DNA of 64,000 nt from Salipiger bermudensis (GTDB lineage Bacteria; Pseudomonadota; Alphaproteobacteria; Rhodobacterales; Rhodobacteraceae). How positions within the stretch are numbered: position 1 is the first letter of the stretch; every line of letters begins with the position of its first letter. Of this stretch, positions 7,187-47,668 are shown one piece after another. The stretch covers positions 1 to 64,000 of the forward strand of contig NZ_JAHVIA010000007.1 in the NCBI RefSeq assembly GCF_019801965.1. Direction: 5' to 3'. The notes under the pieces are model-generated. The model did not search any database. It saw nothing but the letters and a program-made list of their open reading frames with translations, and was not told the origin of the DNA. Made by a program: the position numbers and the translations under genes.

Positions 7187-7383
7187 TCAGGCGGAGGCGG
7201 CCATGGCGGGCGGCTCTTCGGATCGTGGCTCGGGATCGCGCAGCACGTAGCCCCGGCCCCAGACCGTTTCGATATAGTTCTCGTCGCCCGTGGCCTCGCT
7301 CAGCTTCTTGCGGAGTTTGCAGATGAACACGTCGATGATCTTGAGCTCAGGTTCGTCCATGCCGCCATAGAGGTGGTTGAGGA
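7187..7383 (-). pseudogene. ctrA: ctrA 3' fragment (C-terminal DNA-binding half), separated by prophage
   Basis: These codons encode the end of Ctr[27 protein letters not shown] (recognition-helix region) and [15 protein letters not shown], ending with TGA at 7187-7189. They continue exactly the CtrA sequence that stops at 47142-47148, so an intact gene would encode 238 residues. Upstream, the frame runs into phage DNA and reaches a stop codon without passing a start codon, so the fragment is not expected to be translated as a hybrid. Excision of the phage would restore ctrA. Confidence 0.95.
7377..7383. other. attL core (left prophage-host junction)
   Basis: TTGAGGA is the seven-base identity shared with 47142-47148. 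Host ctrA sequence lies to the left and phage sequence to the right. The flanking bases are partly alike (ATAGAGGTGG here, ATATAGATGC on the right), as expected for an imperfect crossover region of a tyrosine integrase. The core falls in CtrA codons for Leu175-Asn176. Confidence 0.85.
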
Positions 7384-7625
7384 TAGTCTGGAAAATGCCA
7401 ATAGAATCAACGGAACTAGGCCAAACGTTTCAACGGACAAAGCGAAAACGCATCGTGAATCTTGAAACGGCTGTTTTCAGACGTGGCGCACCCGATAGGT
7501 CTCCTCGAACGCCGAGATTCCAACCGCATGCGCTGGAAACGCACCCTGCCGCGCCGCACTGAGATTCAATGCGTTACATCCGACTTTGGAAACTGAGAAA
7601 AACCTCAACTAGCCCCGGAGGCACC
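7384..7625. other. Left phage end: att arm region without a gene
   Basis: No convincing gene lies in these 242 bases. Two copies of TTGAAACG occur in opposite orientation (CGTTTCAA at 7426-7433; TTGAAACG at 7462-7469), and TCAACGGA occurs twice about 22 bases apart (near 7407 and 7430). Similar TTGAAAC/TGAAACG words lie beside the right junction, so these may be integrase arm-binding sites. Confidence 0.4.
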
Positions 7626-7931
7626 ATGGCAGAGCAAATGGATAGCACATACCCCGCCGTTAAAGCGTTCCTTGACCGACACATCATTCAGCAGATGGCG
7701 GAAAGCGGCGGCAGCTTCGGCCCGCTCGAAACCTGCTGGGGGCTTTCGTGGTTCACCAACGACTGGATCACCAAAGACATGGCGCGGGCCCTTCTTCGCG
7801 ACCTGACCGATCGAGGCTTCTGCTATTTCAGCAGGGGCCTGTTCAATGAGGATGGGCAAGTGGCAGGAGCCGGATACGGCCTGACCAAGAAGGGCCTAGA
7901 ATATTATGACCAGCTCTGCCCGGACATTTGA
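7626..7931 (+). CDS. Phage-end hypothetical protein (possible moron)
   Basis: A 101-residue protein starting MAEQMDSTYPAVKAFLD and ending YGLTKKGLEYYDQLCPDI. ATG 7626 is chosen because CGGAGG precedes it by six bases. The pattern 'GPLETCWGLSWFTNDWITKDMARALLRDL ... GYGLTKKGLEYY' resembles a small winged-helix-like fold, but no family is recognised. It is transcribed towards, and ends five bases from, the last gene of the oppositely oriented late operon. That position at the phage edge is typical of lysogeny-expressed accessory genes. Confidence 0.6.
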   Translation: MAEQMDSTYPAVKAFLDRHIIQQMAESGGSFGPLETCWGLSWFTNDWITKDMARALLRDLTDRGFCYFSRGLFNEDGQVAGAGYGLTKKGLEYYDQLCPDI

Positions 7932-7936
7932 TCCAC

Positions 7937-8149
7937 CTAACCCCTCTCAGGCATCCCCGCCGACCATCCAAATCGCACTTCAGCGGGACGCCCTACCCGC
8001 CCGCAGGTTGAGCACCTGAGGCGTGCCAAGGCGTGGTCGGTCATCACCCAGCCTGTCGCGTCCCTGTCGGAGCGCGGCAGGTCGGCCATTATCAGGACCG
8101 TGTGTCGCCCGCAGGCGCATGTGAGGTAGGCAAAGTGTCCTCGGCGCAT
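7937..8149 (-). CDS. Small zinc-ribbon-like phage protein
   Basis: A 70-residue protein with CAC near the start (YLTCACGRH) and CSTCG later (LRCSTCGRVGRPAEV), a spacing that would suit one zinc ion. It is the last gene of the late operon and overlaps the preceding gene's 3' end by 58 bases. The start at 8149 lacks a strong ribosome site, so the start is uncertain. Function unknown. Confidence 0.55.
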   Translation of the reverse strand: MRRGHFAYLTCACGRHTVLIMADLPRSDRDATGWVMTDHALARLRCSTCGRVGRPAEVRFGWSAGMPERG

Positions 8150-8460
8150 GGCATGGCATTACCGCCCGCCTGCGGCATCGTCCAGCCGTGCGGCCACGTC
8201 ACGCTGTAACCGATACCGTATGCCGTGCGGATCATCACCGGCCAGCCAGCGCGAGCGATCACCGACCGTGCGCGCCTGACAGCGATCCGCATCGCGTCCA
8301 TGCTGGGGTCTTTCCCCGTCGCCTCGTAGATGTGATCTGAGACGGCGCTATGCGGGTAAACGGCCCCATTGCGGCGCAGGAATAGCACCAGCACGAGAAG
8401 TGTCATCCGGGGAGCGTCCACAGCCAGACGCTCCCTCATTAGCGCAGCGTCCTCGATCAC
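8092..8460 (-). CDS. Stand-alone winged-helix protein, OmpR-type DNA-binding domain
   Basis: A 122-residue protein read from a GTG at 8460 that overlaps the TGA of the upstream spike gene. The middle part fits the OmpR/PhoB effector domain: a helical stretch from about residue 19 with a TLLVLVLFLRRNGAVYPHS core, a recognition-helix-like AMRIAVRRARSVIARAG, and the wing IRTAYGIGYSV, which corresponds to the 'TVWGRGYVL' wing of CtrA. There is no receiver domain. It presumably binds DNA on its own. Targets are unknown; late-operon position suggests action late in infection. Confidence 0.65.
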   Translation of the reverse strand: MIEDAALMRERLAVDAPRMTLLVLVLFLRRNGAVYPHSAVSDHIYEATGKDPSMDAMRIAVRRARSVIARAGWPVMIRTAYGIGYSVTWPHGWTMPQAGGNAMPCAEDTLPTSHAPAGDTRS

Positions 8461-11246
8461 GGGGCGAAGGCCGTCAGGAGATCGCCGTAGATCGTCGCCA
8501 GCGACGTGAGCTCTGCCGCCGAGAGCGCGGAGTTAGCGGCCCCTGCCCCGAAGATCTGAGCATCCGAGTAAGTGCCGTATCGGTTGCCGATGTGCAGCTT
8601 GTTCTCTGCCGTTGTCGCAGACGCGGTTGTTGCGCTGTGGATCTCCGTACCGTCAGCGCCGTGCAGGGCAATTGCCGACGCTCCACTACGAACAATAGCC
8701 CGCATTCCCACATCAGTAGGAAGCGTGCCAGAGGTCACGGATGTGTTGCCGCCGGAGTTGAGGCGATACCGCGCCGCGCCGTTGTTCACGATGCGCAGGA
8801 ATAGCTCAGAGCCGCTTACCTCTGTCGTACTGTTGGCAGCGTTCAACTCGGTCTGCGTACCGGAGGCAAGTGCCGAGTAGAACACCATGACCGTGGCGTC
8901 ATTCTGCGGAAGCTCGGTGGACGGGTTCACTCGCATATCGAGGCCACCGGTTGCACCCACACCAGCCCCTCCGCCGCCGGTCCAGCCGCTTGCCGCAGAC
9001 CAAACCCATTCGTCGCCGGGGTCGGCGAAGTCATCGAGCAGGCTCAGGCTTTGGCCCTTTAGGTCGAGGCGCGAAGCCACCTCATCCCCCAGGCGGGGAT
9101 AGAGCTTGATGACCTTCGACCACCACGTCGTCGCCTTCGCCGCCACGTAGAAGTCGTTGAGCGCGGTCGCATCAGCACCGGCAATCGTTCCGCCACCGTT
9201 GGCCGACACCTGATCAATGAAGGCCTGCGTCTCAGCCTCGAACGACGGCGCGCTGGCATAGGTTGTGACTGTCCAAGTGTCCGACACTCCGCCGATCGTT
9301 ACCGTCGCAGAGGTCGCGGTGCTGGTGCTCCCGGAAGCGGTCTGTCGGATCTGGATTTTCTGGAACTTGTCCACAAAGCCCGATGTGGCCCAATCGCTCA
9401 CCACGCTGTCGCCGTTCAGGCTGTTAAGCGTGCGGAACTCGCCGCCGGATACCGTGACCGCCGACCGACGTTCAATGCCTCCGATAAGGAGCGCGTTGGA
9501 TAGGATCACGCTTGAGGGTGTCACGTCCGTCTGATCGGTGAAGGTGAAGGCGTTCGGCGTGGTATCCGTGATCGCGCCGTAGGTTGCGTCGTATGTGCCA
9601 GCCACCGCCGCGTAGCTGCGCAGGCCCATGCCCTCCGTCCACGGCTCCGCCGGGTGGATCAGCCCGAAGTTTGACGGGATGAAGTCGGTGTCGATCGTGG
9701 TGGCGTTGCCGTCAGCAATCGGCACGGCGATCTGCGCCTCTCGGATTGTCCAGGCGCGCGGCCAGCCCGCCTCGGTGGTCACGCCATCGCCAGCATCATA
9801 TCCAAGCGGGCGGATGCGCTGCACGATGACGAACGCCGAGCTTGTGACGCGCGAGCGCAGCGCCGTGAACCACGCGGTGAAGTTGGTGTTGTAGCTATCT
9901 GCCGCCGTTCCGTCCCCGCTCGGGCCTGCGCCGACATTCGCGTCGGCCTCGCCTTGGTTCCAGATCAGGTACTCGTCGCCGAAGCCAGCCGGGACAAGTG
10001 CGCGTGCCCGCGCTGCCTTGGCCTCCAGGTAGTCGAACTTGTCGTTGCTGGTGGCCGGATTCCACTGTTCGAACAGGTTCTGACCGTTCACGGCCTCCTT
10101 GACCACGTAGACCGTCCGCGTCTCGCCAGCCTGCCGCAGCTGGTAGATGAACTCGGCCTCCGAGCCCCACGCGGTAAGCGTGTTGTCAGGGTCAGCATTC
10201 GAGGTCACATCGTAGGTCTGGAATGTCGCTGCGGCGATCTGCTCCATCACCGTGCCGGTCTCATCGCGCACGAGGATCTGCACATTGCCGAGCGAGCCGT
10301 CTGTGTATTTTGTCGGCGGCGTTGCAGAGCTGTTGCCCGCAACACGAGCGTTGGATTGACCCGCCACGAACAGGAGGATGTTGTCACCCGCCGGAGCCTC
10401 AGCATTCACGGTCACGCTGAACGCGCTGCTGTCAGAGCCGCCGGAGTTGGCGTAGGCCACGGTGACAGTAACAGCCGAGAGCGTGGCGCTTGTCGGGATC
10501 GAGACCACGCCAGACTGATCGATGCTTGCGCTTGCGCCGCTGACCGACCATGTGCCGCCAACCGAGCCGGTAAAGTCGCCGGAGGCATCAACGGTCTGAA
10601 CGCCGGTGTTCTGGTCATATGTGCGATCTGGCAGCGCGCCAGAGGCCACAGGCGCAGCGTAGGTCACAGCAACCGCGACAGCATCAGCCGGAACCGTGGT
10701 GAACCCATCATCAGCCGTGACAGTGCATCCGATATCCGCCCCATCATCGGCGGCAACGAGCGTGTAGGTGTTCGCCGTCGCGCCGTCGATGTTTGCGCCG
10801 TCTCGCGTCCACTGGTAGCCGTAGGTGCGCGATGCCGATCCGGTCCACGTTCCATCTGACACGCTGAGCGTCTGGCCAATCTCAGGTGTCCCACTGATGG
10901 CCGGAACAACGCTGTTCGCCAGCGCGACAGAGGGCGTCACGACAACGGAGCCCGTCGAGAACACGCGCTCGTTCGCCGCGCTGTCGGTCACGGTCTCGGT
11001 CGCGGAAACCACGTCACCTGCTGTCAGGTCGAACGTGCCGGCCTGCGGTGAGCCGTTGACGAGATACGCCACCACAGCCGAGGAAATTGTGCCCTCGCTC
11101 GATTGGTAGCTGCCAGCCGTGAATCCGTCCGATGGCGTCTGGCTATCATCCAGCGCGGCCATAGTCGGCGCGGAGGTTGCCGTGATTACGGGCGGCTCGC
11201 CAGCCGATCCCGTGCCAGTGATGCCAAGCCCAAGCCCGATTTTCAT
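8457..11246 (-). CDS. Phage receptor-binding/tail spike with SGNH esterase domain
   Basis: A 929-residue virion protein. The first 285 residues are Ser/Thr/Gly-rich beta repeats including an Ig-like module with YGYQWTRDGANIDGATANTY. A sialate-O-acetylesterase-like SGNH hydrolase follows, with the nucleophile in GQSN (S298), a QGEAD block at 431-435 and LIHP with H531. The C-terminal third is again beta-rich with a LamG-like look. Such proteins bind and trim acetylated surface sugars on the host. The ATG at 11246 overlaps the spanin stop (ATGA). A GTG three codons upstream is the alternative. It sits downstream of the lysis genes, far from the other spike gene. Confidence 0.8.
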   Translation of the reverse strand: MKIGLGLGITGTGSAGEPPVITATSAPTMAALDDSQTPSDGFTAGSYQSSEGTISSAVVAYLVNGSPQAGTFDLTAGDVVSATETVTDSAANERVFSTGSVVVTPSVALANSVVPAISGTPEIGQTLSVSDGTWTGSASRTYGYQWTRDGANIDGATANTYTLVAADDGADIGCTVTADDGFTTVPADAVAVAVTYAAPVASGALPDRTYDQNTGVQTVDASGDFTGSVGGTWSVSGASASIDQSGVVSIPTSATLSAVTVTVAYANSGGSDSSAFSVTVNAEAPAGDNILLFVAGQSNARVAGNSSATPPTKYTDGSLGNVQILVRDETGTVMEQIAAATFQTYDVTSNADPDNTLTAWGSEAEFIYQLRQAGETRTVYVVKEAVNGQNLFEQWNPATSNDKFDYLEAKAARARALVPAGFGDEYLIWNQGEADANVGAGPSGDGTAADSYNTNFTAWFTALRSRVTSSAFVIVQRIRPLGYDAGDGVTTEAGWPRAWTIREAQIAVPIADGNATTIDTDFIPSNFGLIHPAEPWTEGMGLRSYAAVAGTYDATYGAITDTTPNAFTFTDQTDVTPSSVILSNALLIGGIERRSAVTVSGGEFRTLNSLNGDSVVSDWATSGFVDKFQKIQIRQTASGSTSTATSATVTIGGVSDTWTVTTYASAPSFEAETQAFIDQVSANGGGTIAGADATALNDFYVAAKATTWWSKVIKLYPRLGDEVASRLDLKGQSLSLLDDFADPGDEWVWSAASGWTGGGGAGVGATGGLDMRVNPSTELPQNDATVMVFYSALASGTQTELNAANSTTEVSGSELFLRIVNNGAARYRLNSGGNTSVTSGTLPTDVGMRAIVRSGASAIALHGADGTEIHSATTASATTAENKLHIGNRYGTYSDAQIFGAGAANSALSAAELTSLATIYGDLLTAFAP

Positions 11247-11446
11247 TTCACACACCCAAATTCATCGCAGAGGCGATCTTGATAGATAACCCAGCGCCCA
11301 AAGGCCGGGTCGGCTTTCAGAGCGGAGACAGTTTCAGCCCGCGCATCTGGCGGGCGCTGGCTCACATCCTTAAACAAGGCGTCACTCCCCAGAGGAGCGC
11401 AGGCGGTCATCAAGCTCACGACCAAGACTGTCATCATCAAGCGCAT
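11243..11446 (-). CDS. Rz1-like outer-membrane spanin lipoprotein
   Basis: A 67-residue protein starting MRLMMTVLVVSLMTACAPLG, a short signal with lipobox LMTAC, predicted to be lipidated at C19. After cleavage it would be an outer-membrane lipoprotein that joins the inner-membrane partner to fuse the membranes at lysis. Its start (11446) lies inside the neighbouring Rz-like gene in another frame, the classic embedded Rz/Rz1 layout. Two further cysteines near the C-terminus (CDEFGC) are unusual for Rz1. Confidence 0.75.
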   Translation of the reverse strand: MRLMMTVLVVSLMTACAPLGSDALFKDVSQRPPDARAETVSALKADPAFGRWVIYQDRLCDEFGCVK

Positions 11447-11612
11447 CGGTTTCGCTCCTGATCTCGTTTCCGGTTTCGATATTCTCGAAGCGATCCTCTG
11501 CGGATTTCGCCTTGATGCTTTGGCGCTCTTTCCACTGCCCGGCGAGGAACGCGGCTGCGATGAGTGCGGCGACGGAAAGCGTCCAGCGCGCCCACCTTGG
11601 GACGGCAATCAT
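11382..11612 (-). CDS. Rz-like inner-membrane spanin
   Basis: A 76-residue protein with one N-terminal membrane segment (WTLSVAALIAAAFLAGQW) and a charged, probably helical periplasmic tail. Size, topology, position after the holin, and a lipoprotein gene overlapping its 3' half identify it as the inner-membrane spanin of the lysis cassette. The start overlaps the holin stop (ATGA). Confidence 0.75.
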   Translation of the reverse strand: MIAVPRWARWTLSVAALIAAAFLAGQWKERQSIKAKSAEDRFENIETGNEIRSETDALDDDSLGRELDDRLRSSGE

Positions 11613-11791
11613 TGCTTCTTCTCCGGCGCGGTGACGCTGAGCCAGAATCCCAGAAGCGCCATGAAGATGCCGACCACGCCCTGCCAGTAAGCGTCGGTCG
11701 TGATGCCGTGCGCAGCGAGCAGCGGCCCCATGCTCGTCAGGAGGTGCCGAAGCGCGCCCTGCACTTGCGGCTTTCGGATGATCTCGATCAT
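11609..11791 (-). CDS. Phage holin (Pam3-gp28-like)
   Basis: A 60-residue protein starting MIEIIRKPQVQGALRHLL, with one clear membrane segment (WQGVVGIFMALLGFWLSV) and a Lys/Glu tail, of the type annotated as Pam3-gp28-family holin. It would make lesions in the inner membrane at lysis time. Both ends overlap neighbours by four bases (lysozyme upstream, spanin downstream), giving an uninterrupted lysis cassette. Confidence 0.75.
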   Translation of the reverse strand: MIEIIRKPQVQGALRHLLTSMGPLLAAHGITTDAYWQGVVGIFMALLGFWLSVTAPEKKQ

Positions 11792-12432
11792 GCCTTGTCC
11801 TTTCGGAAGATGCTGAGAAGCGCCGAGATAATCGCGGCGAACGCGCCAGACGTGGCCGGAGGGGTGACAGGCTTTGCCGCCGCAGGGGCGTCGTAGATCT
11901 CCGCCAGCGCTGGCCGGATATCGACGCGCTGCGCGCTGGACCAAACCGGCGTGTAGGATGCCGTGACCCGGGTGTATTCGGTCACATGGCCGTCGCCAGA
12001 CCACTTGCCATTGAAGAACAGGTCACGCTCTGCCTGCCTGCGCGGGATGATCTCGGCGGGCTTCTTCCAGTTCATGAACGCCTTGCGCGCGCCTGCAATA
12101 TCACCAGCCTTCCAGCGCTCGACCCACGAGGCGCGCCCGATGGCCCCGGTGTTGTAGTGGAAGCTGAGAGCGGCGGCGAATTGCGCCTCGGTCAGTTCAT
12201 GGCCGGAGAAGGCGCGCAGAACATCGTCGGCGTATTTCTCGAGAACCCATACCCACACCTCAAGGCAGCGCTTCATCGGCTGCGGGTTGTTGATGTAGCG
12301 CGACACCTCGTGACCGATGGCGGCGGTGATGCCGATCGACCAGGTCCACACGGCTACGGAATCCTTGTAGGCTTGGCGCACAAGCCCTTCGTGAGCCGCA
12401 ACCTCAGCCGCGACCCGTGCAGTGATCTGCAT
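11788..12432 (-). CDS. Phage lysozyme/endolysin (GH24-like)
   Basis: A 214-residue muramidase-type endolysin. The segment AAHEGLVRQAYKDSVAVWTW followed by SIGIT carries the E-x8-D-x5-T catalytic arrangement of T4-type lysozymes (E at about 15), and ALSFHYNTGAIG is a further family block. The C-terminus ends in a hydrophobic stretch (AFAAIISALLSIF) and a lysine-rich tail, which may tether it to the membrane. ATG 12432 is used: a longer in-frame reading runs through the tRNA gene and is spurious. It cleaves peptidoglycan once the holin opens the membrane. Confidence 0.85.
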   Translation of the reverse strand: MQITARVAAEVAAHEGLVRQAYKDSVAVWTWSIGITAAIGHEVSRYINNPQPMKRCLEVWVWVLEKYADDVLRAFSGHELTEAQFAAALSFHYNTGAIGRASWVERWKAGDIAGARKAFMNWKKPAEIIPRRQAERDLFFNGKWSGDGHVTEYTRVTASYTPVWSSAQRVDIRPALAEIYDAPAAAKPVTPPATSGAFAAIISALLSIFRKDKA

Positions 12433-12819
12433 TGGCCTTACTCCTGTGATGTGGTAGAACAGACGTGTTGCGGCGCTGCGAAAGCATCCGCATAGAGCGC
12501 GGAGCGCCGGGTCAAAGGTGGGTAGCCACGCGGGCGACAATCTCCGGGACGCGCTAACGATTGTCAGGGTGGAGCAGTCAGGTAGCTCGCCAGGCTCATA
12601 ACCTGGAGGTCGCGGGTTCGAATCCCGCCCCTGCAACCAACCGCCTTCTGGTGGGTGCATTTAGGTCAGGGCGCGCATACTGGCCGGGGCGATATGTCCG
12701 GTGCATCCTCCCGAGCGCGGCGGCGTGGAAAGCAGACACGCGAAAATTCGGGATATGGGGCAGGTACGAACGCCGCCCGGCCAATCCGCCCCGCAGCCGG
12801 AGTAGCGACCGGCCCGCGC
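12433..12819. other. Protein-free stretch holding the phage tRNA
   Basis: About 390 bases between two late genes with no convincing protein gene. The only supported feature is the tRNA on the plus strand. Open frames on both strands here are translations of the tRNA or of GC-rich DNA. Confidence 0.6.
12563..12639 (+). tRNA. tRNA with CAT anticodon (Met, or Ile if lysidine-modified)
   Basis: A 77-base cloverleaf with encoded CCA. D arm GAGC/GCTC, anticodon arm CCAGG-CTCATAA-CCTGG, five-base variable loop, T arm GCGGG-TTCGAAT-CCCGC. The acceptor stem is poor at its tip: GTCAGGG against CCCTGCA pairs only at the inner five positions, with mismatches at 1:72 and 2:71. It lies on the strand opposite to the late operon, between the lysozyme gene and a small membrane-associated gene. 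It could be a working phage tRNA, an initiator-like form, or a decaying copy. Confidence 0.8.
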
Positions 12820-13017: not shown

Positions 13018-13018
13018 G

Positions 13019-20440: not shown

Positions 20441-21331
20441 TTATCCGAAGTAACCAGCTCTCGACATGCCGTAGATAGTGCCGAGGTTGTTGAACGTGCC
20501 TTGCAGCGCGTTGTTGACGCCTTGGTAGCCGCTTGCCCGAGCCTGACCTGCGGCCATCATGTTTTGCCCCGCCTGATTGGCGTAGTTCGTGCCATATGCG
20601 GCGGTTTGAGAGGCCGAGCTCTGCCCCTGCCCTGCCAGACCGGCGATGCGGTTTAGCCAGTTGTTGTATTCTTGGTTCTGCCGCCCCTGTGCGTCAGTCG
20701 CGAGAGCGTTGAGCGTTGCCCCGCTGAGACGCATTCCGCGCGCCGCTGCGTTGCGGTTGATCGCCTCCTGCGACTGGTCGAGGGCGTACTGAAACCCGGG
20801 CGTCTCCTGAAAGCCTTGATACTCGTAGCCCGCCGCGTTGTTTGCTGCGCGCTGCGCCTCGCCCATCGTGTTGTAGGTCTTTCCACCGACGCTGTAGGTC
20901 GTGGTTGCTGCCTGTGCTGCTGCCGGGCCACTATCGAAAAGCGGTTGGCGCCCGGTAGCGGCCCTAAGCTTTTCCGCCGCTTGGAAGAGTGGAAAGTTGC
21001 GGGCGATATATCTGGCCGGGTGCGTATCAGGAGACCAAACGCCTTGCGTTCCGCTTTGCGCCGTTTGTGGTGCTGGCGTGGTCGTTTGCGAAATCACCGG
21101 CTGGATATCGTTCGGGTTCGCGCCAAGGCCGAGCTCGTAGTTCAGAGCGGCAAGCGCATTGGTCCCGGCATCGTACCACGGCTTTTGCAGGTCGATGTTG
21201 TTGTAATAGATTTCGCGCTGGAGTTCCGTCGAATCCTCAGCCGCATCAGCCTGTGCATCTGCTGCTTTGCTGGCGGATCGCGAACCAATCAGACCGCTTG
21301 CGATGCTGCCGACTGCTGCACCTATTGCCAT
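20441..21331 (-). CDS. Phage DNA ejection/transfer protein
   Basis: A 296-residue protein starting MAIGAAVGSIASGLIGSRSA, a short hydrophobic glycine-rich start followed by helical Asn/Ala/Gln-rich sequence (GFQETPGFQYALDQSQEAIN, YNNWLNRIAGLAGQGQ). Proteins of this pattern are common in P22-like phages after the neck genes and are thought to enter the cell with the DNA. ATG 21331 with AAGGA upstream is chosen over ATG 21340. Confidence 0.7.
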   Translation of the reverse strand: MAIGAAVGSIASGLIGSRSASKAADAQADAAEDSTELQREIYYNNIDLQKPWYDAGTNALAALNYELGLGANPNDIQPVISQTTTPAPQTAQSGTQGVWSPDTHPARYIARNFPLFQAAEKLRAATGRQPLFDSGPAAAQAATTTYSVGGKTYNTMGEAQRAANNAAGYEYQGFQETPGFQYALDQSQEAINRNAAARGMRLSGATLNALATDAQGRQNQEYNNWLNRIAGLAGQGQSSASQTAAYGTNYANQAGQNMMAAGQARASGYQGVNNALQGTFNNLGTIYGMSRAGYFG

Positions 21332-33672: not shown

Positions 33673-34019
33673 TGCGCCACCTCGTAGAGATAGGGGTCTA
33701 CCCGGTGAGCTCGCTCTCGGGTCAGGCGTCCTGCGCGGTATTCCATGCCAAGGATGCGAGACACGTAGGCCAGGCTAAATCCGGTCTCGTCGCACACGTC
33801 GCGCGAGGTTGCGCGGCCCCGGTCCTTGATCGCGGCGAAGATCTTCGCACGCATGGTCGCGCTGCTGGTGGTGTGGCCAGCCTCGCCCTTGGCGTTGTCG
33901 CGCATCCGCTTGTTTTCCTCGGCGGCGTACTCTGCCATCGTCTTTGTTGGCGAGGTCATTGGTTGTGCCTTGGGGAAGTGGTGGGCCTTGGGGCGGACTG
34001 ATGCGTTTAGGGTGGTCAT
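33669..34019 (-). CDS. Winged-helix DNA-binding phage protein
   Basis: A 116-residue protein with a helix-turn-helix in its C-terminal half: MRAKIFAAIKDRGRATSRDV, then CDETGFSLAYVSRILGMEY and a wing-like RLTRERAHRVDPYLYEV. GGAGG stands ahead of ATG 34019. It follows the primase gene with a four-base overlap. A regulator or replication accessory role is possible. Confidence 0.65.
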   Translation of the reverse strand: MTTLNASVRPKAHHFPKAQPMTSPTKTMAEYAAEENKRMRDNAKGEAGHTTSSATMRAKIFAAIKDRGRATSRDVCDETGFSLAYVSRILGMEYRAGRLTRERAHRVDPYLYEVAQ

Positions 34020-34945
34020 TTGCTTGCCTCCAAATTGATATCGGCCCAATCGGCCCCGACGCGCGGCGGGATATGCACGCTCACCTCGATCCCCTTCACG
34101 GCCAGCTTGTGAGCGAGAGCCCACGCCGCAGCATGGCCTCCGAATTTCGGGTCGTTGTCTCCGAAGATCGCGACCTCGTTGCAGCCCTCGGGCGGGAGCC
34201 ATTTCGCCATTCCGCCGCTGTTGATCGCTGCCCATACCGGCATGTCGAAAAGCGCCGAGGCTCCGAACGCGGTTTCGATACCCTCAGCGATGCCGAGCGG
34301 CCCGCCTGCCACGTACTCGCTCAGCCGGACGCATGAGCCGTCAGGCAGCTCACCGGGCATGAGCTTGCGAGGCGCGGCCATCTCAGCCTTTCCCGAGCCA
34401 TCAGGCTTGAGGAATGTCCGGTGCATCGTGACCGGCTTTCCGTCCGGGCCGGTGACCATCGCCACCATGCAAGGCCGGATGCCGCCTTCACCGTCCCGCA
34501 GCTTCGGCGCGAACCTGAGCGCATCCGTGTACGTCAGATCGGCAACGCCGCGCACTTCGAGGTAGCGGTGCACCAGATCCCCCGGCTTGACGGCTTCGGT
34601 GGCCTTGTAAGTATTTCGCAGAACATCGCGGCGCGTCTCCTGCGTCATCTCCGGCTTCGGCGCTTCGGCCTTGAGGTTGCCGACCATGCCGTCGATGATG
34701 CTGGCCACCTCGCGGAATGGCTTCCCGGTGTATTCGCAGGCAAGCTTCATCCCATCGCCAGCACCGCAAGAATTGCAGATGTACGTCCCGCGACCCTCTT
34801 TATCGTCAAAGCGAAACCGATCAGTACCGCCGCAGAGAGGGCATGGGCCATGCTTGTCGCGCAGGCTTCGCTCGGGGACGCCGAGCGTCATGAGGATGCC
34901 GCGCCACTTGCCCCTGGCGGCGTGCGTCGTCTTATCGTGAAACAT
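34016..34945 (-). CDS. Phage DNA primase (zinc finger plus TOPRIM)
   Basis: A 309-residue primase. The zinc-binding domain has C35, C38, C57 and C60 in PCPLCGG ... YICNSCG. The TOPRIM core is seen as LGIAEGIETAFGASAL (catalytic glutamate) and AIFGDND (acidic pair). It has no helicase domain, so it must work with the separate helicase encoded before it. ATG 34945 overlaps that gene's stop (TGATG); the longer upstream reading is rejected. Confidence 0.9.
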   Translation of the reverse strand: MFHDKTTHAARGKWRGILMTLGVPERSLRDKHGPCPLCGGTDRFRFDDKEGRGTYICNSCGAGDGMKLACEYTGKPFREVASIIDGMVGNLKAEAPKPEMTQETRRDVLRNTYKATEAVKPGDLVHRYLEVRGVADLTYTDALRFAPKLRDGEGGIRPCMVAMVTGPDGKPVTMHRTFLKPDGSGKAEMAAPRKLMPGELPDGSCVRLSEYVAGGPLGIAEGIETAFGASALFDMPVWAAINSGGMAKWLPPEGCNEVAIFGDNDPKFGGHAAAWALAHKLAVKGIEVSVHIPPRVGADWADINLEASK

Positions 34946-36432
34946 CAGCTCGCCCCCTTCTGCTTGGACTTGGCCCACGCGATGCGGCGGCTCTTCTCCC
35001 AATTCAGGAAGCCTTGATCGGCTGGGCGGCGCTCATCGCTGAGGCCGCGCGGCCATACGCCAAACTTTTCGCGGTACTTGTTCGCCGCCCAGCCGGGCTT
35101 GTATCCTCGCTGGTCAGCCATCCAGAGCGCCATGCTGTAGACTGACTGTTTCTCCTCGCGGGTCGCCTTCTCGGACTTGGCGCGCTTAGGCGTGAGTTCG
35201 ACAAGTTCCCCATCCACGGTTTCAACGCCAGCCACCGGCTTGCGCTCGTGGCCGCAGAACGGGCAGGTCAGGCCTGTGTGAAGGGCGGCGCAGTTGGCGC
35301 ACTCCCTCGGCAGCTTCTCGGACGGCTTGCGCTCCTGGCGCTCACCCGGAGCGGTCTTGTCGAGCGTGTGGTGTTCGATATCCGTCACCAGACCGTTGCG
35401 CAGGCTGTTCCCAGCGTGGTCGAGGATGAGAAGATCCTCGGTTCCGGGGTTCACCCGCAGGCCGCGCCCGATCTTCTGGACGTGCAGCATCTCGGATTTT
35501 GTGGGCGCGGCGTCGATGATGCAGGACACCGGCCAATCGACACCAGTGGTCAGGGTGCGCACGGAACACGCGACTTTCACCTCACCGGAACGGAACCGGC
35601 GTTCGATGATCGAGCGCTCTACCGTGTCGGTGAAGGCGTCAACGTAAGCCGTCGCCACCCCGGCCCGCTCGAACTCTTCCGACAGCGCCTTGGCGTGCGC
35701 CCGGTTCACCCCGAATAGCAGCGTCGGGCGGTTCTGCCCCTTTCCCAGCCACGTATCGACAACCGACGCCATGAGCGCGTTGCCCTGCATCACCTCAGCC
35801 GCATCGCCCTCGGCGTAGTCTCCCTTGCTGACCTTGACGCCGGTCATATCCGGCACGTCCGGCGCGTAGGCCGTGAACTGCGAGAGATATCCGGCTTCAA
35901 TGAGCTCGCCGATGGTGCACGGGATCACCAGATCCTGCCAGCGACGGCCCATGCCTTTCGCCCACGGGGTAGCGCTCAGACCGATGAAGAACACGTCTTC
36001 GCGGCTATCCATCAGCTCTTCGATGACCTTTGCCCGCAGGTGGCACTCGTCAACGATGATGAGCGAGGCCTCGGGGATCTCACGACGGGCAAGGGTCTGC
36101 ACCGATGCCACCTGAACCCTTGCCAGAGCATCGGTGCGGGGATGGTTCGCCTGCATCACGCCGATATCGCGGATGCCCTCGTTTTCGAATGCGCTCACGG
36201 TTTGGTCGATCAGCGAGACAGCCGGGGCAGTGAAGATTACCCGGTTGCCCTTGGCGAGAGCACCCTCGATGACCTTGGCAGCGGTCAGCGTCTTCCCGAA
36301 GCCTGTTGGCCCTTGGCAGACGACACGGCGGTTTCCCTTGCCAAGAGATTGACGGATTGCCTCGATGGCTCTGGCTTGGTGAGGCCGAAGGGTTTTCGGC
36401 TTGGCGCTTTGGCCGGTCAGGAGGTCAAGCAT
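34945..36432 (-). CDS. DEAD/DEAH-box helicase (phage replication)
   Basis: A 495-residue superfamily 2 helicase: Walker A GPTGFGKT (41-48), DECH box in IIVDECHLRAK, SATPW motif III, and motif VI QKIGRGLR. A four-cysteine zinc segment (CANCAALHTGLTCPFCG) follows the core. It is adjacent to the primase, and the pair likely forms the phage replication helicase-primase system. ATG 36432 with GGAGG five bases upstream is preferred; longer readings run through the gene before it. Confidence 0.9.
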   Translation of the reverse strand: MLDLLTGQSAKPKTLRPHQARAIEAIRQSLGKGNRRVVCQGPTGFGKTLTAAKVIEGALAKGNRVIFTAPAVSLIDQTVSAFENEGIRDIGVMQANHPRTDALARVQVASVQTLARREIPEASLIIVDECHLRAKVIEELMDSREDVFFIGLSATPWAKGMGRRWQDLVIPCTIGELIEAGYLSQFTAYAPDVPDMTGVKVSKGDYAEGDAAEVMQGNALMASVVDTWLGKGQNRPTLLFGVNRAHAKALSEEFERAGVATAYVDAFTDTVERSIIERRFRSGEVKVACSVRTLTTGVDWPVSCIIDAAPTKSEMLHVQKIGRGLRVNPGTEDLLILDHAGNSLRNGLVTDIEHHTLDKTAPGERQERKPSEKLPRECANCAALHTGLTCPFCGHERKPVAGVETVDGELVELTPKRAKSEKATREEKQSVYSMALWMADQRGYKPGWAANKYREKFGVWPRGLSDERRPADQGFLNWEKSRRIAWAKSKQKGAS

Positions 36433-36904
36433 TCGAACCTCCTTCGCCATTCTGGCTAGGGTCGCCTTTGACGGGGTATATACCGTGTGCAATTTTTGCA
36501 CGCGACAACCGTGCAATTTCGGGTCCAACAACCGTGCAATCCTGACCCCTTCCGCGCACGAAATCATCGACCCAATCACACCCGCAGAGCACGAAAAGGG
36601 CGTAGGTGTTGACGCTGTAACGGGTGGCCGCACCGTGCCCGCCTTTGAGGTTGGAGACGGGATTTAGAACACCGGCAGCGCGCAACATCGACATGGTGCT
36701 TGCCACCGTTCGAACACTCACGCCGGCCTTCTTGGCGATCTTCTGGCGCCCCGGATGGATCGGTCCCTTAGCCCGGTGGTGGAACCAATGGTTCACCAGT
36801 GCGATAATCACATCGCGCTCACCCTTGGTGAATTCACCCTTCCTGATCGACTGCCGAACGAGGCGGCGGAAGGATTGCTCTTGGCTGTCTTTGAAACTCG
36901 TCAT
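36425..36904 (-). CDS. Winged-HTH phage protein, possible replication initiator
   Basis: A 159-residue protein with a winged helix at about 25-100: GERDVIIALVNHWFHHRAKG, then RQKIAKKAGVSVRTVASTMS and a wing with GGHGAATRYSVNTY. Proteins of this build beside helicase genes often act as origin-binding initiators (lambda O-like role). It overlaps the helicase start by eight bases. Confidence 0.7.
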   Translation of the reverse strand: MTSFKDSQEQSFRRLVRQSIRKGEFTKGERDVIIALVNHWFHHRAKGPIHPGRQKIAKKAGVSVRTVASTMSMLRAAGVLNPVSNLKGGHGAATRYSVNTYALFVLCGCDWVDDFVRGRGQDCTVVGPEIARLSRAKIAHGIYPVKGDPSQNGEGGSNA

Positions 36905-37125: not shown

Positions 37126-37301
37126 TTCCCCACCTTCGCCAGCGCTTTATCGAGCCGGTCCCTGATGTTCTGTGTTGATGTGCTGACGGTCTCTCCGGCG
37201 CGCATCGGTTGCAGCGCCACGCGGAGAGAATGCACCTGGTCGCGCGGGATGCGGATCACCACCGTGTCGCCGTCCTCGCGGATGCCGTAGCCCTCGCTCA
37301 T
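37122..37301 (-). CDS. Small phage protein
   Basis: Fifty-nine residues starting MSEGYGIREDGDTVVIRIPR. A beta-like first half and a helical second half (TQNIRDRLDKALAKVGK). Overlaps the methylase stop by four bases. Function unknown; size and fold would suit a small DNA- or protein-binding regulator. Confidence 0.6.
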   Translation of the reverse strand: MSEGYGIREDGDTVVIRIPRDQVHSLRVALQPMRAGETVSTSTQNIRDRLDKALAKVGK

Positions 37302-38110
37302 GGCGTCACCTCGAATAGCTGCATCTGCGCGTCGTCGAAGTTCATCCATAGAACCTCAGTTCGCTTTCTCGCCCCATCCGCCAGCGAGGCGCGTTCGATG
37401 CGCCGCCACCCATCTAGGGCGTCGTCATAGGACTGATGCGGGTAACCGGAGAGCACTACACGGCCCGTGAGCGTGCGCAGGAACTCCAGCAAGTCGCGAT
37501 GGTCAGCGTCCGTCATCTCGTGGGCATAGTCGCACCCAGCATCGCGTGTGGCTGCCACGTAGGGCGGATCTACGTAGTGCAGCGTATCTGGCCCGTCGTG
37601 AGCCTCCATAACCTCGCGTGCGTCACGGTTAAGCACCACGACGCCGCGCAGCCGCTCTATCACCCGTGCCAAACTGTCTGGGTAGTTGACCCAATCTCTC
37701 GCAGGCGTTGTGCCGCTGCGGTTGCTGTTTGACCGGAACCCGCTTTTGCGATGGATAGCGTTAGACCCGAACCCCATGAACGACTTGACTACAGTGCGAC
37801 GGGCGCGCTCGAAGTCGTCGCCACCACGCGAATAGGCGTCGAAGAACTCTTGAGCAGCGAATGGTGTCAGCCTCAGGGACTCAACGAGATCTGACGCACT
37901 GTCCGAGCGGAGAACGCGGAACAGGTTCACCACCTCGTCATCCAGATCGTTGTAGACCTCGGCGTAGCTACGCGGCTTGCGCATCAACACAGACGCAGCT
38001 CCGCCGAACGGCTCGACATAGACCCGATGCGAAGGGAAGTGCGAGATAATCCACGGGGCGAGAATCCACTTCCCGCCGTGCCATCTGAGGACCGGCCGTG
38101 ATACCGTCAT
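37298..38110 (-). CDS. Dam-type N6-adenine DNA methyltransferase
   Basis: A 270-residue methylase of the D12 (Dam/DpnM) class. Motif X RWHGGK at the start, motif I YVEPFGGAAS (31-40) for S-adenosylmethionine and motif IV DPPY (181-184) for catalysis are all present, so it should be active. Its sequence target cannot be read from the protein; Dam relatives use GATC. The usual host cell-cycle methylase CcrM belongs to another class (GANTC). Phage methylases often guard against restriction. Confidence 0.9.
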   Translation of the reverse strand: MTVSRPVLRWHGGKWILAPWIISHFPSHRVYVEPFGGAASVLMRKPRSYAEVYNDLDDEVVNLFRVLRSDSASDLVESLRLTPFAAQEFFDAYSRGGDDFERARRTVVKSFMGFGSNAIHRKSGFRSNSNRSGTTPARDWVNYPDSLARVIERLRGVVVLNRDAREVMEAHDGPDTLHYVDPPYVAATRDAGCDYAHEMTDADHRDLLEFLRTLTGRVVLSGYPHQSYDDALDGWRRIERASLADGARKRTEVLWMNFDDAQMQLFEVTP

Positions 38111-38621: not shown

Positions 38622-38624
38622 GGG

Positions 38625-39684: not shown

Positions 39685-39698
39685 GGTATGAGTGATAC

Positions 39699-39716
39699 TA
39701 CACGCTTTAGCGTGCA
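39699..39716. promoter_or_regulatory. Operator palindrome between cro and cI
   Basis: TACACGC-TTTA-GCGTGCA: a near-perfect copy of the 18-bp palindrome TGCACGC-N4-GCGTGCA that recurs at 40642 and 40672. Its location in the cro/cI gap makes it the probable switch operator. A weaker half-matching copy follows at 39723-39740. Confidence 0.72.
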
Positions 39717-39759
39717 GGTCAATGCACGCAATAACGTTCGCGATCAACACATTTCCACG

Positions 39760-39775
39760 TGCTACAAACGTAGCA
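39760..39775. repeat. Inverted repeat at the cI start codon
   Basis: TGCTAC-AAAC-GTAGCA, perfect six-base arms with the same four-base spacer as the operators. It covers the region normally used for the ribosome site and reaches the first base of ATG 39775. It may be an operator variant or an RNA hairpin limiting CI translation. Confidence 0.5.
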
Positions 39776-40119
39776 TGAAAGAAGATTGGTTTCAGAGACT
39801 TGAGGAGGTCATCGAAGCAGATGGCCGCAGCCTTCGCAAATTAAGCGAAGATGCGAAGCTCGGGCCGAACTTCGTTCAACAGCTCCTCAAATACCGAAAA
39901 GATCCGCGCGCCAGCCAGCTTTCAAAGCTGCTAGACGCCCTGGGGAAACCGGCAGAGTTCTACGTTCTTACCGGTTCCCGCCTTCAGCCGGTTGACATTG
40001 AGTTCTTAGAGCTCGTGTCTGGTCTTGACGCCGCTGCGGTTCGTGACGTGATGACCGTGGTGCGAAGGTTCTCAGCGCCTGAAGTTCAGCTAGAACGTCA
40101 ATCTGCTGAATGCGATTGA
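39775..40119 (+). CDS. CI-like XRE-family repressor, short form
   Basis: A 114-residue protein starting MKEDWFQRLEEVIEADGRSL, with an HTH at about 18-55 (LRKLSEDAKLGPNFVQQLLK then RKDPRASQLSKLLDALG). The rest, EFLELVSGLDAAAVRDVMTV, could be a dimerization helix. There is no peptidase S24 (LexA/CI cleavage) domain, so it should not be cleaved through RecA. The upstream ATG at 39688 would add 29 residues coded by the operator, which is unlikely. Confidence 0.75.
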   Translation: MKEDWFQRLEEVIEADGRSLRKLSEDAKLGPNFVQQLLKYRKDPRASQLSKLLDALGKPAEFYVLTGSRLQPVDIEFLELVSGLDAAAVRDVMTVVRRFSAPEVQLERQSAECD

Positions 40120-40659: not shown

Positions 40660-40671
40660 TTTCTCTTGCCA

Positions 40672-41146: not shown

Positions 41147-41205
41147 CCCGTCGCCAGCGCCTCCACGCGGGGCGCTGCACCATGGGCCAGAGAAAGGAGC
41201 CTTCC

Positions 41206-41636: not shown

Positions 41637-41806
41637 TGCGTCAGGTCATCCTCCAATCCCGGCTCAACGAGGCGCTGAACGAGGCCGTTGCGGCATTCCT
41701 CCGCGACTACCCCGACGCCACCACCACCACGATCTGCAACGCCCTGCACGACAGCATCAGCGATGCGCCTGTCGTGGCTCAGAACACACGGAAGGAAGCG
41801 GCATGA
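41636..41806 (+). CDS. Small phage protein
   Basis: Fifty-six residues starting MRQVILQSRLNEALNEAVAA, helical, with LRDYPDATTTTICNALHD. Joined to both neighbours by overlapping start/stop codons. Function unknown. Confidence 0.55.
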   Translation: MRQVILQSRLNEALNEAVAAFLRDYPDATTTTICNALHDSISDAPVVAQNTRKEAA

Positions 41807-41949
41807 CCATGCGCGAATGCTTTCTCGACATGATGCGCCAGCGCCGCCGGTTCCCGCGCGGCTCGGGCGAGTGGGATTGGCGCACAAAGGCCGCCCGCAA
41901 GTACCTCTGGATGCACCTTGGCGTGCCGACAACGAAATGGGTGGAATGA
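41803..41949 (+). CDS. Small phage protein
   Basis: Forty-eight residues: MTMRECFLDMMRQRRRFPRG, then GEWDWRTKAARKYLWMHLGV. It overlaps both neighbours. A short W/R-rich fold like this is common ahead of recombination genes; function unknown. Confidence 0.55.
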   Translation: MTMRECFLDMMRQRRRFPRGSGEWDWRTKAARKYLWMHLGVPTTKWVE

Positions 41950-42581
41950 TGAGCAAGAACGTACACCAGCGCCTCGCGGCAGCTATGGGCGAGGTCTCCT
42001 ACATCCAGAAAGAGCGGAAGAAGGGTATGCAGTACACGATCGTGTCGCATGACGCTGTGACCGCGAAGGTGCGCCCAGTCCTGCTCAAGCATGGCATCGT
42101 CTACTACCCGGTATCTTGCGAGCACCAGCACAATGGCAACCGCGCCGAGTGCGCCATGACCGTGCGTTTCGTCAACATCGATGAGCCGTCCGACTTCTTC
42201 GATGTTCCGACCTTCGGGTATGGGATCGACCCTCAAGACAAAGGCCCTGGCAAGGCCATGTCATACGCCGTGAAATACGCGCTCCTCAAGGCGATGGGCC
42301 TAGAGACCGGCGACGATGCCGATCACGACAGCATCGACCATGACCGCAAAGACCCTGCGTCTGACAGCGTAACGCCCCCTGCCGAGGTGCGCGACCGTAT
42401 CAAGGCCGCTCTACAGCGGGCGAAGGATGTGAAGTCGCTTGACGGCGTGTGGAAGCACAAGGCCACCGAGGAGGCTTTCTCCGTCCTTCCCGAGCCAATG
42501 AAAGGCGAGCTCGCCAAGGTCTACAGGGAGCAGACGGCGCGCGTGTGTCAGGCTCCCGAGAACGGGGCGCAGTACCAATGA
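41946..42581 (+). CDS. ERF-family single-strand annealing protein
   Basis: A 211-residue recombinase of the ERF superfamily (P22 Erf type), which anneals complementary single strands for recombination-dependent replication and circularization. Conserved segments are NVHQRLAAAMGEVSYIQKER, YTIVSHDAVTAKVRPVLLKHG and GPGKAMSYAVKYALLKAMGL with the following ETGDDAD. The C-terminal third is a variable linker. Two in-frame ATGs (41946, 41949) could start it. Confidence 0.92.
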   Translation: MMSKNVHQRLAAAMGEVSYIQKERKKGMQYTIVSHDAVTAKVRPVLLKHGIVYYPVSCEHQHNGNRAECAMTVRFVNIDEPSDFFDVPTFGYGIDPQDKGPGKAMSYAVKYALLKAMGLETGDDADHDSIDHDRKDPASDSVTPPAEVRDRIKAALQRAKDVKSLDGVWKHKATEEAFSVLPEPMKGELAKVYREQTARVCQAPENGAQYQ

Positions 42582-45595: not shown

Positions 45596-45897
45596 GCCGA
45601 GACAAACTACCCACAACGCCACTCCCAGACGACGTGATCGACCGGGTGGCAAGAGAGGTTGCTGAGCAAGTCGCGGAACACATCGAATTCATGTATCCCG
45701 AAGCGGCGAAGGCTGTCGCTTGGAAGAGTGCGTCACGGTCCATCAAAGGTGTGATCCGCAACTGCATGGCAGAGGCCGGGAGGGCGGCTGAATCGGGGCG
45801 CATCGAGGTTGCCCTGAAAGCGATGCGAGAACGGCGATTGAGCCTTCGCGCCACTCGAACCTCCCTACGCGCCCTTGCCAACGGAGGTGACGACTGA
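45592..45897 (+). CDS. Phage hypothetical protein
   Basis: A 101-residue helical protein starting MSRDKLPTTPLPDDVIDRVA. It ends LRALANGGDD, nearly the same end as the gene before it (LRALANGGEG), and the DNA around both ends is alike, hinting at a small duplication. Overlaps both neighbours. Function unknown. Confidence 0.6.
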   Translation: MSRDKLPTTPLPDDVIDRVAREVAEQVAEHIEFMYPEAAKAVAWKSASRSIKGVIRNCMAEAGRAAESGRIEVALKAMRERRLSLRATRTSLRALANGGDD

Positions 45898-46073
45898 TGC
45901 CCGCCGCAGATCCCACCGCGCAGCCCCTTAAGGGCGCGGAGCTTCGCAAGGCTGTTGCTGAGTGGGCCGGGCTGGGCTGCGCGGTCAAGATCGGCTCAGA
46001 CGGCACCATCGAAGTCACTCCGCCCTCGCGCGAAGGCAATGAGCCCGACCTCGTGAATTGGAGCCGCAAGTGA
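45897..46073 (+). CDS. Small protein preceding the integrase
   Basis: Fifty-eight residues starting MPAADPTAQPLKGAELRKAV. It overlaps the integrase start (GTGA) and lies where excisionase genes often lie, but no winged-helix Xis pattern is visible. The stretch AVAEWAGLGCAVKIGSDGTI is seen before integrases in related prophages. Confidence 0.6.
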   Translation: MPAADPTAQPLKGAELRKAVAEWAGLGCAVKIGSDGTIEVTPPSREGNEPDLVNWSRK

Positions 46074-47077
46074 AGCGCTCTCTCCCGGCATATGTCTACG
46101 CTCGCGGGAAGAAGGGGTATCTTTACTTCATCCGCTCCGGCGTCTGCCAGCGCATCCACAGCGAGCCGGGAACGCCGGAATTTGCGGCCGATTACGCCAT
46201 GCTGATGAGGGGCCGGCCTGTTACACCAAAGCGCAACATTGGAAAGCTCATCGAGCTTTTCATGCGTTCGCCTAAGTGGGCCAACTATGCCTACAACACG
46301 CGGCGCGGCTATGAGCGCCACCTCACCTACCTTCGGGAGACTGCCGGGAATATTGACCCAGCTAAGCTGCGCACCGTCCATGTCTATGAGATGCGGGACG
46401 CCTTGGCGGACAAGCCGACCGATGCGAACCGGAAGATCGACACCCTCGTGGCGCTCCTGAACTACGGCATCCAGATCGGCTGGATCGATAGAAACCCTGC
46501 GCACGGCGTCGAGCGCCTGAAGGCGACGGGACGGAAGCGAAAGCCGTGGCCGGTCGATCTGATCGAAGCCTTCCGCGCAGAGGCGGATGGCCGAACGCTG
46601 CTCATTTTTGAAATGCTGCTCGGCACCGGCCAGCGCATCAATGACGTGCTGTCTCTTCGCTGGTCAGACCTAGACGGCGACGGCTTCACCCTCACGCAAG
46701 GCAAGACCAAGACCGAACTATACATCCCTCTGACAGACCGCCTGCGCTCTGTGCTGGCGTCTCAGAAGCGGCGCGGCCTGTTCATCATCTGTCACGATGA
46801 CGGAACCAAGATCAGCTACCAGCTTGCCCACAAGGACGTGATGGCTGTGCGGAAGAAGATTGGCGCGGATGAGTACGACATTCACGCGCTGCGCTACGCC
46901 GCGGCGTCCGAGATCGCCGCAATCCCCGGCATGACCCGCGAACACATCCAGGCAATTACCGGCCATGCTGACGCTGCCATGATCCGCCGCTATGCCGGTG
47001 CCGCCGTTCAGAAGATCAGAGCGACCGAGGCACAGAAGGCGCGTGCGGACAGAACGAATACGAAGCGAGAACCTTGA
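46070..47077 (+). CDS. Tyrosine integrase
   Basis: A 335-residue phage integrase. The catalytic residues are R189 (TGQRINDVL), a lysine near 212-214 (GKTKTE), H272 and R275 (HALR), H299 (ITGHAD) and the nucleophile Y308 (RRYAG). The N-terminal arm-binding part and a core-binding part with KRNIGKLIELFMRSP precede the catalytic domain. It ends 64 bases from the attR core, as usual. GTG 46070 overlapping the TGA of the small gene before is preferred; a TTG at 46058 is the alternative. It carries out integration in ctrA. Confidence 0.93.
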   Translation: MKRSLPAYVYARGKKGYLYFIRSGVCQRIHSEPGTPEFAADYAMLMRGRPVTPKRNIGKLIELFMRSPKWANYAYNTRRGYERHLTYLRETAGNIDPAKLRTVHVYEMRDALADKPTDANRKIDTLVALLNYGIQIGWIDRNPAHGVERLKATGRKRKPWPVDLIEAFRAEADGRTLLIFEMLLGTGQRINDVLSLRWSDLDGDGFTLTQGKTKTELYIPLTDRLRSVLASQKRRGLFIICHDDGTKISYQLAHKDVMAVRKKIGADEYDIHALRYAAASEIAAIPGMTREHIQAITGHADAAMIRRYAGAAVQKIRATEAQKARADRTNTKREP

Positions 47078-47128
47078 AACATCTCTGAAACGCAAAAATA
47101 GTGATGAGCGACTTCAATACCTTACGTG

Positions 47129-47668
47129 CTAATATAGATGCTTGAGGAACATCTCCTTGGTGAGCGTGGTGCCCTTGCGCAGCGAGAGCAGCTCGAGCAT
47201 CTGGTATTCCTTGCCGGTCAGATGCACCGACTTTCCGGCGACCTCGACGGTCTTGGCATCGAGATTAACCGAGATCTTGCCGGTGCGGATCACCGATTGC
47301 GAATGCCCCTTCGAGCGCCGGATGATCGCGTGGATGCGGGCGACCAGCTCGTCGCGGTGGAACGGCTTGGTGAGATAATCGTCGGCGCCGAAGCCGAAGC
47401 CCTTGATCTTGCTCTCGGTATCGTCGGCCCCCGAGAGGATCAGGATCGGCGTGTTGATCCGCGACATGCGCAGCTGGCGCAGCACCTCGTGTCCGTCGAT
47501 GTCGGGCAGATGCAGATCCAGCAGGATCAGGTCGTAATCATAGAGCTTGGCCAGGTCGATCCCCTCTTCCCCGAGATCGGTGGCATAGACGTTGAGATTG
47601 GCATGGGTCAGCATCAGCTCGATGCTCTTCGAGGTCGTCGGATCGTCTTCCACCAGGAGGATTCGCAT
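47129..47668 (-). pseudogene. ctrA: ctrA 5' part: truncated cell-cycle response regulator
   Basis: The first 175 codons of CtrA plus four codons across the junction (KHLY then TAG), giving a 179-residue product instead of 238. The receiver domain (1-119) is intact, with phosphoacceptor D51, acidic pair E7/D8 and K101. The winged helix starts at 140, but its recognition helix and wing are lost. In Rhodobacterales CtrA controls flagella and gene transfer agent genes. The start has CGGAG upstream. Transcription from here now runs antisense into the integrase operon. Confidence 0.95.
47142..47148. other. attR core (right prophage-host junction)
   Basis: TTGAGGA identical to 7377-7383, with phage sequence on the left and ctrA on the right. 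Nearby TTGAAAC (47074-47080) and TGAAACG (47086-47092) match words at the left phage end and may be integrase arm sites. Confidence 0.85.

Follow-up and report, generated by a model that had tools for sequence, protein, structure and literature searches.

A 64,000-nucleotide stretch of Salipiger bermudensis DNA (contig NZ_JAHVIA010000007.1, positions 1 to 64,000; hereafter the window) carries a prophage inside ctrA, the gene of the regulator CtrA. We consider it probable that a phage with a P22-like head has integrated at the sole ctrA of this strain, that the lysogen is equivalent to a ctrA null mutant, and that the integrase module represents the conserved unit. Beyond what the initial annotation of this DNA had described, genome comparison shows that one integrase clade, found in mostly different phages, has targeted this site repeatedly.

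The initial annotation had placed two CtrA halves about 39.8 kb apart, joined to phage DNA at identical cores with a tyrosine integrase beside one of them, and each of these elements is found where it was reported:

47142..47668, minus strand: 5' part of ctrA, codons 1-175 and two bases of codon 176, covering the receiver domain (Asp51 included) and the beginning of the DNA-binding domain (PF00072, 97.4 bits; PF00486, profile positions 1-34 only)
7187..7383, minus strand: 3' part of ctrA, encoding the recognition helix, wing and C-terminal tail (PF00486, profile positions 40-77)
7377..7383: core TTGAGGA of the left attachment site attL (sequence repeat)
47142..47148: core TTGAGGA of the right attachment site attR (sequence repeat)
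46058..47077, plus strand: tyrosine integrase of the ctrA-site clade, ending 64 bases before the core (PF00589; PHROG integrase, 1.6e-40)

On the minus strand, an open reading frame of 179 amino acids (47668-47129) follows CtrA for 175 codons and then continues in phage DNA until a stop at 47129, its product ending ...MFLKHLY. The insert between the TTGAGGA cores measures 39,765 bp, and the core spans ctrA codons 174-176. Joining the flanks in silico restores the reading frame and yields the complete 238-residue CtrA that had been predicted; judged from this join, precise excision should give back an intact ctrA. The two objections raised at the outset, a second intact copy of the gene and an assembly error at the junction, are not borne out. 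In the genome that holds the window, 4.83 Mb in size and 99.97% complete, no second CtrA was detected and the next best match is 33% identical, which speaks against another copy. Furthermore, chance and assembly error are both very unlikely origins of the split, because other genomes show the identical junction with other inserts.

The search for further ctrA genes with integrase-flanked insertions, which had been proposed as a check, was performed on 20 genomes of the genus Salipiger by locating CtrA and then reading the junctions. CtrA is full-length in 15 of the 20, while in the remaining five it aligns only to residue 179-182. Four of these five carry integrase-bearing inserts exactly at the site, namely the window's genome (G000), S. 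thiooxidans DSM 10146 (G001), S. bermudensis AmN7-7 (G007) and S. bermudensis HTCC2601 (G019); both halves and the insert share one contig in G000, AmN7-7 and HTCC2601, and the N-side piece of S. thiooxidans carries the integrase. The fifth genome (G009) was ruled out as a further insertion, being frameshifted by a one-base insertion in a G run by the core codons (C125 near 123794, L052), which may reflect phase variation, decay or sequencing error.

The pattern extends to relatives. Among 22 genomes of the genus of Pseudooceanicola marinus, 19 encode a full-length CtrA, and in P. marinus LMG 23705 (G440) the gene is split, its halves lying on two contigs with an integrase of the clade (75% identical to the window's) adjoining; the search returned no CtrA match in G458 of this genus. 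Four IMG/VR records also place a clade integrase at ctrA (G436, G437, G438 and G439), with the N half adjoining the integrase in G436 and G437, and the C half at the far end in G438. The site pattern, allowing at most three mismatches, is present in 365 of 394 family genomes, a figure that is not a count of intact ctrA, as the pattern matched even the split G000; likewise, the two known split genomes of this sample (G000 and G007) are a lower bound. The other 28 family genomes that lack the pattern comprise one with a full CtrA, one with a 78-residue piece and 26 with distant paralogues only. Foreign sequence also breaks ctrA elsewhere: G446, from the genus of P. marinus, has it after residue 157 (C13:1-521, L203), and G199, another family member, after residue 78 (C131, L204). 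Loss of ctrA, as read from these genomes, is a repeated event that follows several routes.

The integrases of these insertions are related. The two S. bermudensis genomes have integrases 94-96% identical to that of the window, S. thiooxidans one of 86% and the Paracoccus phage Pkon1 one of 55%, and the sole other match in the window's own genome is 27% identical. In a maximum likelihood tree of 51 integrases, midpoint-rooted for drawing only, a single 18-row group, with a support of 100/100, contains every one of the 10 integrases that have a ctrA site; these do not form one unbroken sub-group within it (four label changes). The other eight rows of the group are six records trimmed at the integrase, L169 and L175. 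Downstream of the L169 integrase lies a stretch reading F-L-N-H-L-Y that looks like a ctrA-like phage attachment site (attP). Reading of the junctions places the integrase core at the ctrA codons F-L-N/K, with attP arms matching ctrA codons. Integrases from elsewhere in the family that are 36-50% identical behave differently: none adjoins ctrA in the 28 loci examined (flanks of at most 1.5 kb; part of the matches), and the 18-row group includes none of the 28. Separately, IMGVR_UViG_2615840719_000007 (L165) holds a second clade integrase (79%) under the IMG genome number of the 86% one, perhaps marking a tandem or second prophage.

The phages that carry these integrases mostly differ from one another. 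In an all-against-all comparison of 12 sequences or pieces from 10 phages, using open reading frames of at least 100 amino acids, the integrase is the sole gene of the window's prophage that is matched in all nine others. Pairs of phages share 0 to 9 matched reading frames with the integrase included, the window's prophage having 1-7 with each other phage, and its coat, portal and terminase find no match in the available sequence of the three other Salipiger inserts. The HTCC2601 prophage has best-matching terminase and portal families different from those of the window, and the AmN7-7 prophage a third set, both with a J-type tail fibre; the terminases of the window and of AmN7-7 both also hit phrog_2 as a secondary match. 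By this comparison the inserts at ctrA are mosaic, mostly different phages, and the integrase module, not the whole phage, is the conserved unit. Aggregated, the genome data show a recurrent, site-specific disruption of ctrA by phages with one integrase clade, as far as sequence can establish it.

What the insertion does to CtrA was assessed using an AlphaFold model of the intact Salipiger protein (best of five; mean predicted local distance difference test score, pLDDT, 80.5; predicted template modelling score, pTM, 0.51). The model has a helix at 171-179, a long helix at 184-205 and strands at 211-214 and 218-221, which by analogy with the OmpR family would be alpha-2, the recognition helix and the wing, respectively. 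Residues 1-175 and the phage arm would complete alpha-2, or almost, and a stop or a foreign tail would follow. In the integrated state CtrA should consequently lack the recognition helix and wing but keep Asp51, with DNA binding lost. The codons H-L following the core are kept in all seven N-side junctions examined, the arm adding K/N-H-L-Y, or in two records H-L-S and H-L-H; translated from the Pkon1 arm, the corresponding residues would be H-V-F, and the tails that follow H-L vary between phages. For the conserved H-L codons on the phage side, the core-binding arm of the integrase is the best reading. The separated C half is undecayed in protein sequence: residues 176-226 equal the majority at 51 of 51 positions in three lysogens and at 50 of 51 in the fourth. 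Non-synonymous difference (pN) between lysogen and intact C halves is 0.0213 against 0.0094 among intact ones, despite nearly identical proteins. We suspect multi-step codon paths behind this elevation, and C-half conservation was judged by protein identity only, not by the ratio of non-synonymous to synonymous differences (pN/pS).

The statement of the initial annotation that CtrA is non-essential in Rhodobacterales and controls motility and production of gene transfer agents (GTA) agrees with published mutants, cited here and below from excerpts of the respective papers. In Phaeobacter inhibens, ctrA mutants have silenced flagellar genes and an unexpressed GTA cluster (PMC12363192). In R. 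capsulatus no RcGTA is made without ctrA, and CtrA controls gafA, GTA maturation and lysis (PMC6363796), while in Ruegeria KLH11 the gene is non-essential, the mutant being viable without migrating on swim plates (PMC3692519). A further link between CtrA and prophages comes from P. inhibens, where a 35.6 kb prophage region is among those most repressed in mutants of the CtrA phosphorelay (PMC12363192). Within Salipiger, Flagellin_N and ChpT are matched in 20 of 20 genomes and GTA_TIM in 19 of 20, all four lysogens included. By analogy, the lysogens are strongly expected to behave as ctrA-null, because the truncated CtrA is without recognition helix and wing, and to have motility and GTA production off, because ctrA mutants of relatives lose both.

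The proposed sequence of events is then as follows. A temperate phage would integrate by site-specific recombination at the 7-bp core in ctrA codons 174-176, its arm happening to supply K-H-L-Y, such that translation reaches the end of alpha-2 and then stops. The lysogen would make a receiver-only CtrA that retains Asp51 and is, from the predicted fold, useless as a transcription factor. Such a cell would be non-motile, without GTA production or GTA lysis and with altered surface receptors, until precise excision restores ctrA. Several observations weigh against this account. The halves of S. thiooxidans lie on different contigs, its insert being seen as two contig ends rather than continuously, and 4 of 4 reading frames tested from the C-side contig gave no PHROG match. 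In G439, contrary to every other record with a readable side, the integrase adjoins the C half of ctrA. There are also phages with more in common than the integrase, as 9 of the 20 reading frames of the S. thiooxidans N-side piece match the HTCC2601 prophage. The CtrA model is uneven, with the other four models at 50-66 and residues 181-190 at 61, and the undecayed C halves fit a recent insertion as well as repeated excision. Finally, GTA in Salipiger is known here from gene matches, and excision and the lysogen phenotype are predictions from sequence.

Among the alternatives, the one that survives best is that ctrA is a target of convenience, where the integrase uses a conserved stretch of DNA in the manner of tRNA genes, and the loss of a dispensable CtrA is a tolerated side effect. 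This has a substantial chance of being right, if somewhat short of even. The breadth of the site pattern across the family (split G000 counted), the viability of the KLH11 mutant (PMC3692519), and the ctrA genes broken by other means in G009, G446 and G199 all favor it. The ctrA-site phages, however, leave the gene broken, whereas the three tRNA-site phages of PMC6536676 restore theirs, and the module occurs in several phages that are mostly different, an observation that integrase shuffling by itself could explain. A purpose behind the choice of site is conceivable to a somewhat lesser degree: the clade may be specialised on ctrA and move among temperate phages because CtrA silencing in the lysogen is to their benefit, with excision returning a motile, GTA-competent cell. 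The pay-off would be that no GTA production or lysis kills the lysogen or packages the prophage, and that CtrA-dependent receptors are removed from competitors. On this reading, motility and gene transfer in a family of marine bacteria would be under phage control.

It is rather unlikely that the insertion works as a reversible switch (active lysogeny), with excision without lysis restoring ctrA, motility and GTA under some conditions. The exact in-frame join, the undecayed C halves, the retention of flagellin, ChpT and GTA genes in all four lysogens, and the release of Pkon1 upon mitomycin C (PMC6536676) are congruent with such a switch, but a recent insertion explains the same data equally well. 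Less likely still, the receiver-only CtrA might itself be functional, for instance by taking phosphate away from the CckA-ChpT relay or by forming dimers with newly made CtrA. Its receiver is in frame with Asp51 intact, and H-L is kept in 7 of 7 junctions; yet the core-binding arm of the integrase accounts for the kept codons, the tails after H-L differ, and the Pkon1 arm reads H-V-F. An assembly artefact, or permanent gene loss in a single strain, carries next to no weight, as the halves and insert share a contig in three genomes and the junction recurs with different phages, even if the assemblies are mostly draft.

To return to integration at the sole ctrA as the preferred explanation: CtrA governs motility and GTA production in the Rhodobacterales studied, so a recurrent prophage site in its gene would tie both traits to lysogeny. 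It could account for strain-to-strain variation in motility and GTA output, and offers a direct test of competition between phages and GTA. Moreover, it advises caution, since a prophage may underlie CtrA-dependent traits of isolates, those of the bermudensis type strain HTCC2601 for instance.

The prophage had been called P22-like, a description that holds as far as the head module is concerned (proteins for coat, scaffold, portal, head closure and ejection) and is less certain at the tail end. Head genes of P22 follow the order portal, scaffold, coat, head closure, ejection, and PHROG matches place these proteins in the same order in the window's prophage. Its coat protein and one of Vibrio phage VvAW1, annotated 'P22 coat protein', share 41% identity over 99%, whereas the tail-end protein displays a SASA domain and weak, partial PHROG matches. 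The remaining features of the prophage and its flank are:

8092..8460, minus strand: stand-alone OmpR-type winged helix of the phage near attL (PF00486, 28.6 bits), with a 51% relative in the HTCC2601 prophage
8457..11255, minus strand: SASA carbohydrate-esterase domain protein, tail or spike candidate (profile matches)
11609..12004, minus strand: holin candidate (PF23987)
11788..12660, minus strand: endolysin (phrog_7), true start probably internal to the reading frame, which overlaps a tRNA gene antisense
20441..21340, minus strand: DNA ejection protein (phrog_598)
23366..24718, minus strand: head closure protein Hc3 (phrog_578, 2.3e-86)
25903..27144, minus strand: P22-type coat protein (phrog_283, 8.1e-106)
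27161..27976, minus strand: head scaffolding protein (PHROG match)
27987..30077, minus strand: portal protein (phrog_156, 9.9e-146)
29981..31309, minus strand: terminase large subunit (phrog_979)
32102..32686, minus strand: NusG-like protein, possible antiterminator (PF02357), 44% like one in the S. thiooxidans insert
34016..35002, minus strand: DNA primase (PHROG/Pfam matches)
34945..36633, minus strand: DNA helicase (PHROG/Pfam matches)
37298..38110, minus strand: D12-type adenine DNA methyltransferase (PHROG/Pfam matches)
39688..40119, plus strand: repressor candidate, with a weak HTH_3 match below cut-off and nothing at E 0.001 in a second profile search
41688..42581, plus strand: ERF superfamily recombination protein (profile match)
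45897..46073, plus strand: 58-residue reading frame directly preceding the integrase, with 86-88% identical counterparts in two further ctrA prophages, no Pfam match
47721..47735: site TTAACGCTTCTTTAC resembling a CtrA box, upstream of ctrA, with one mismatch to TTAA-N7-TTAA
47796..48095, minus strand: intact DUF1153 protein (SciP) adjoining ctrA (PF06627, 2.3e-36)

The box upstream of ctrA hints at possible autoregulation, and from its position alone the 58-residue frame would be our guess for an excisionase. A substitution of the lost CtrA DNA-binding domain by the winged helix at 8092-8460 was considered and found weak: comparing the two sequences gave 23% identity across 70 residues at E 0.001. 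The gene antisense to the 5' end of the endolysin frame is a tRNA-Met (CAT) at 12562-12639 on the plus strand (ARAGORN, Rfam). A 145-residue helix-turn-helix protein at 38625-39062 (minus strand), 84% identical in the AmN7-7 prophage, has a sub-threshold GcrA match (E 0.022); together with the adenine methylase it recalls the GcrA/CcrM circuit. Among defence systems, PADLOC returned methyltransferase-type matches only, in one of 10 phage reading frames.

The closest known counterparts are the phage Pkon1 and the prophage PD15, both described in a virome survey of Paracoccus (PMC6536676). Pkon1 (vB_PkoS_Pkon1, MK291442) is induced by mitomycin C, and its integration disrupts a putative OmpR regulator at the bacterial attachment site (attB) GTTTCTCAA(G/C)CAT, while PD15 (vB_PpaP_PD15), with a recombinase 92.7% identical to that of Pkon1, also sits at an OmpR-family gene, the two being a siphovirus and a podovirus; three tRNA-site phages of the same study restore their target gene (PMC6536676). 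The core in the Pkon1 record reads as the ctrA codons F-L-N-H, and attB fits F-L-N/K-H, which suggests that the 'OmpR regulator' is ctrA. Pkon1 thereby shares with the window both the integrase clade and an attB on matching ctrA codons. The record and PMC6536676 call the target an 'OmpR family' regulator, with no consequence drawn in the excerpts, and the word 'ctrA' occurs 0 times in the main text of that paper. The Salipiger phages are distinct from both, PD15 being compared by its published description only.

Other alphaproteobacterial phages are tied to CtrA without breaking its gene. Those of 'lytic deferment' read CtrA via TTAA-N7-TTAA sites (PMC9437464), whereas the ctrA-site phages disrupt the gene instead. 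Indeed, exact TTAA-N7-TTAA sites number 0 in the 12 ctrA-site phage sequences or pieces, and one-mismatch sites 0-2 per phage against 0.05-2.55 expected (20 simulated sequences each). With no exact box and no site cluster, sensing of CtrA through binding sites is unsupported for these phages, which makes sense because they destroy CtrA. Jorvik of Rhodobacter capsulatus, to which a ctrA deletion is resistant, similarly illustrates that host CtrA affects phage success; it differs in having no predicted integrase, probably relying on host XerCD, in integrating in the RuBisCO operon and in needing CtrA (PMC10589892).

No open-access title or abstract start that we found names ctrA as a prophage integration site. 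Prophages that split a functional gene and restore it by precise excision are familiar from comK of Listeria and from phiSa3int in hlb of S. aureus. The Salipiger prophage resembles these in lying within a functional gene, in its direct-repeat core and in a join that restores the frame, and differs in that the target is the alphaproteobacterial regulator CtrA and that several different phages share the site.

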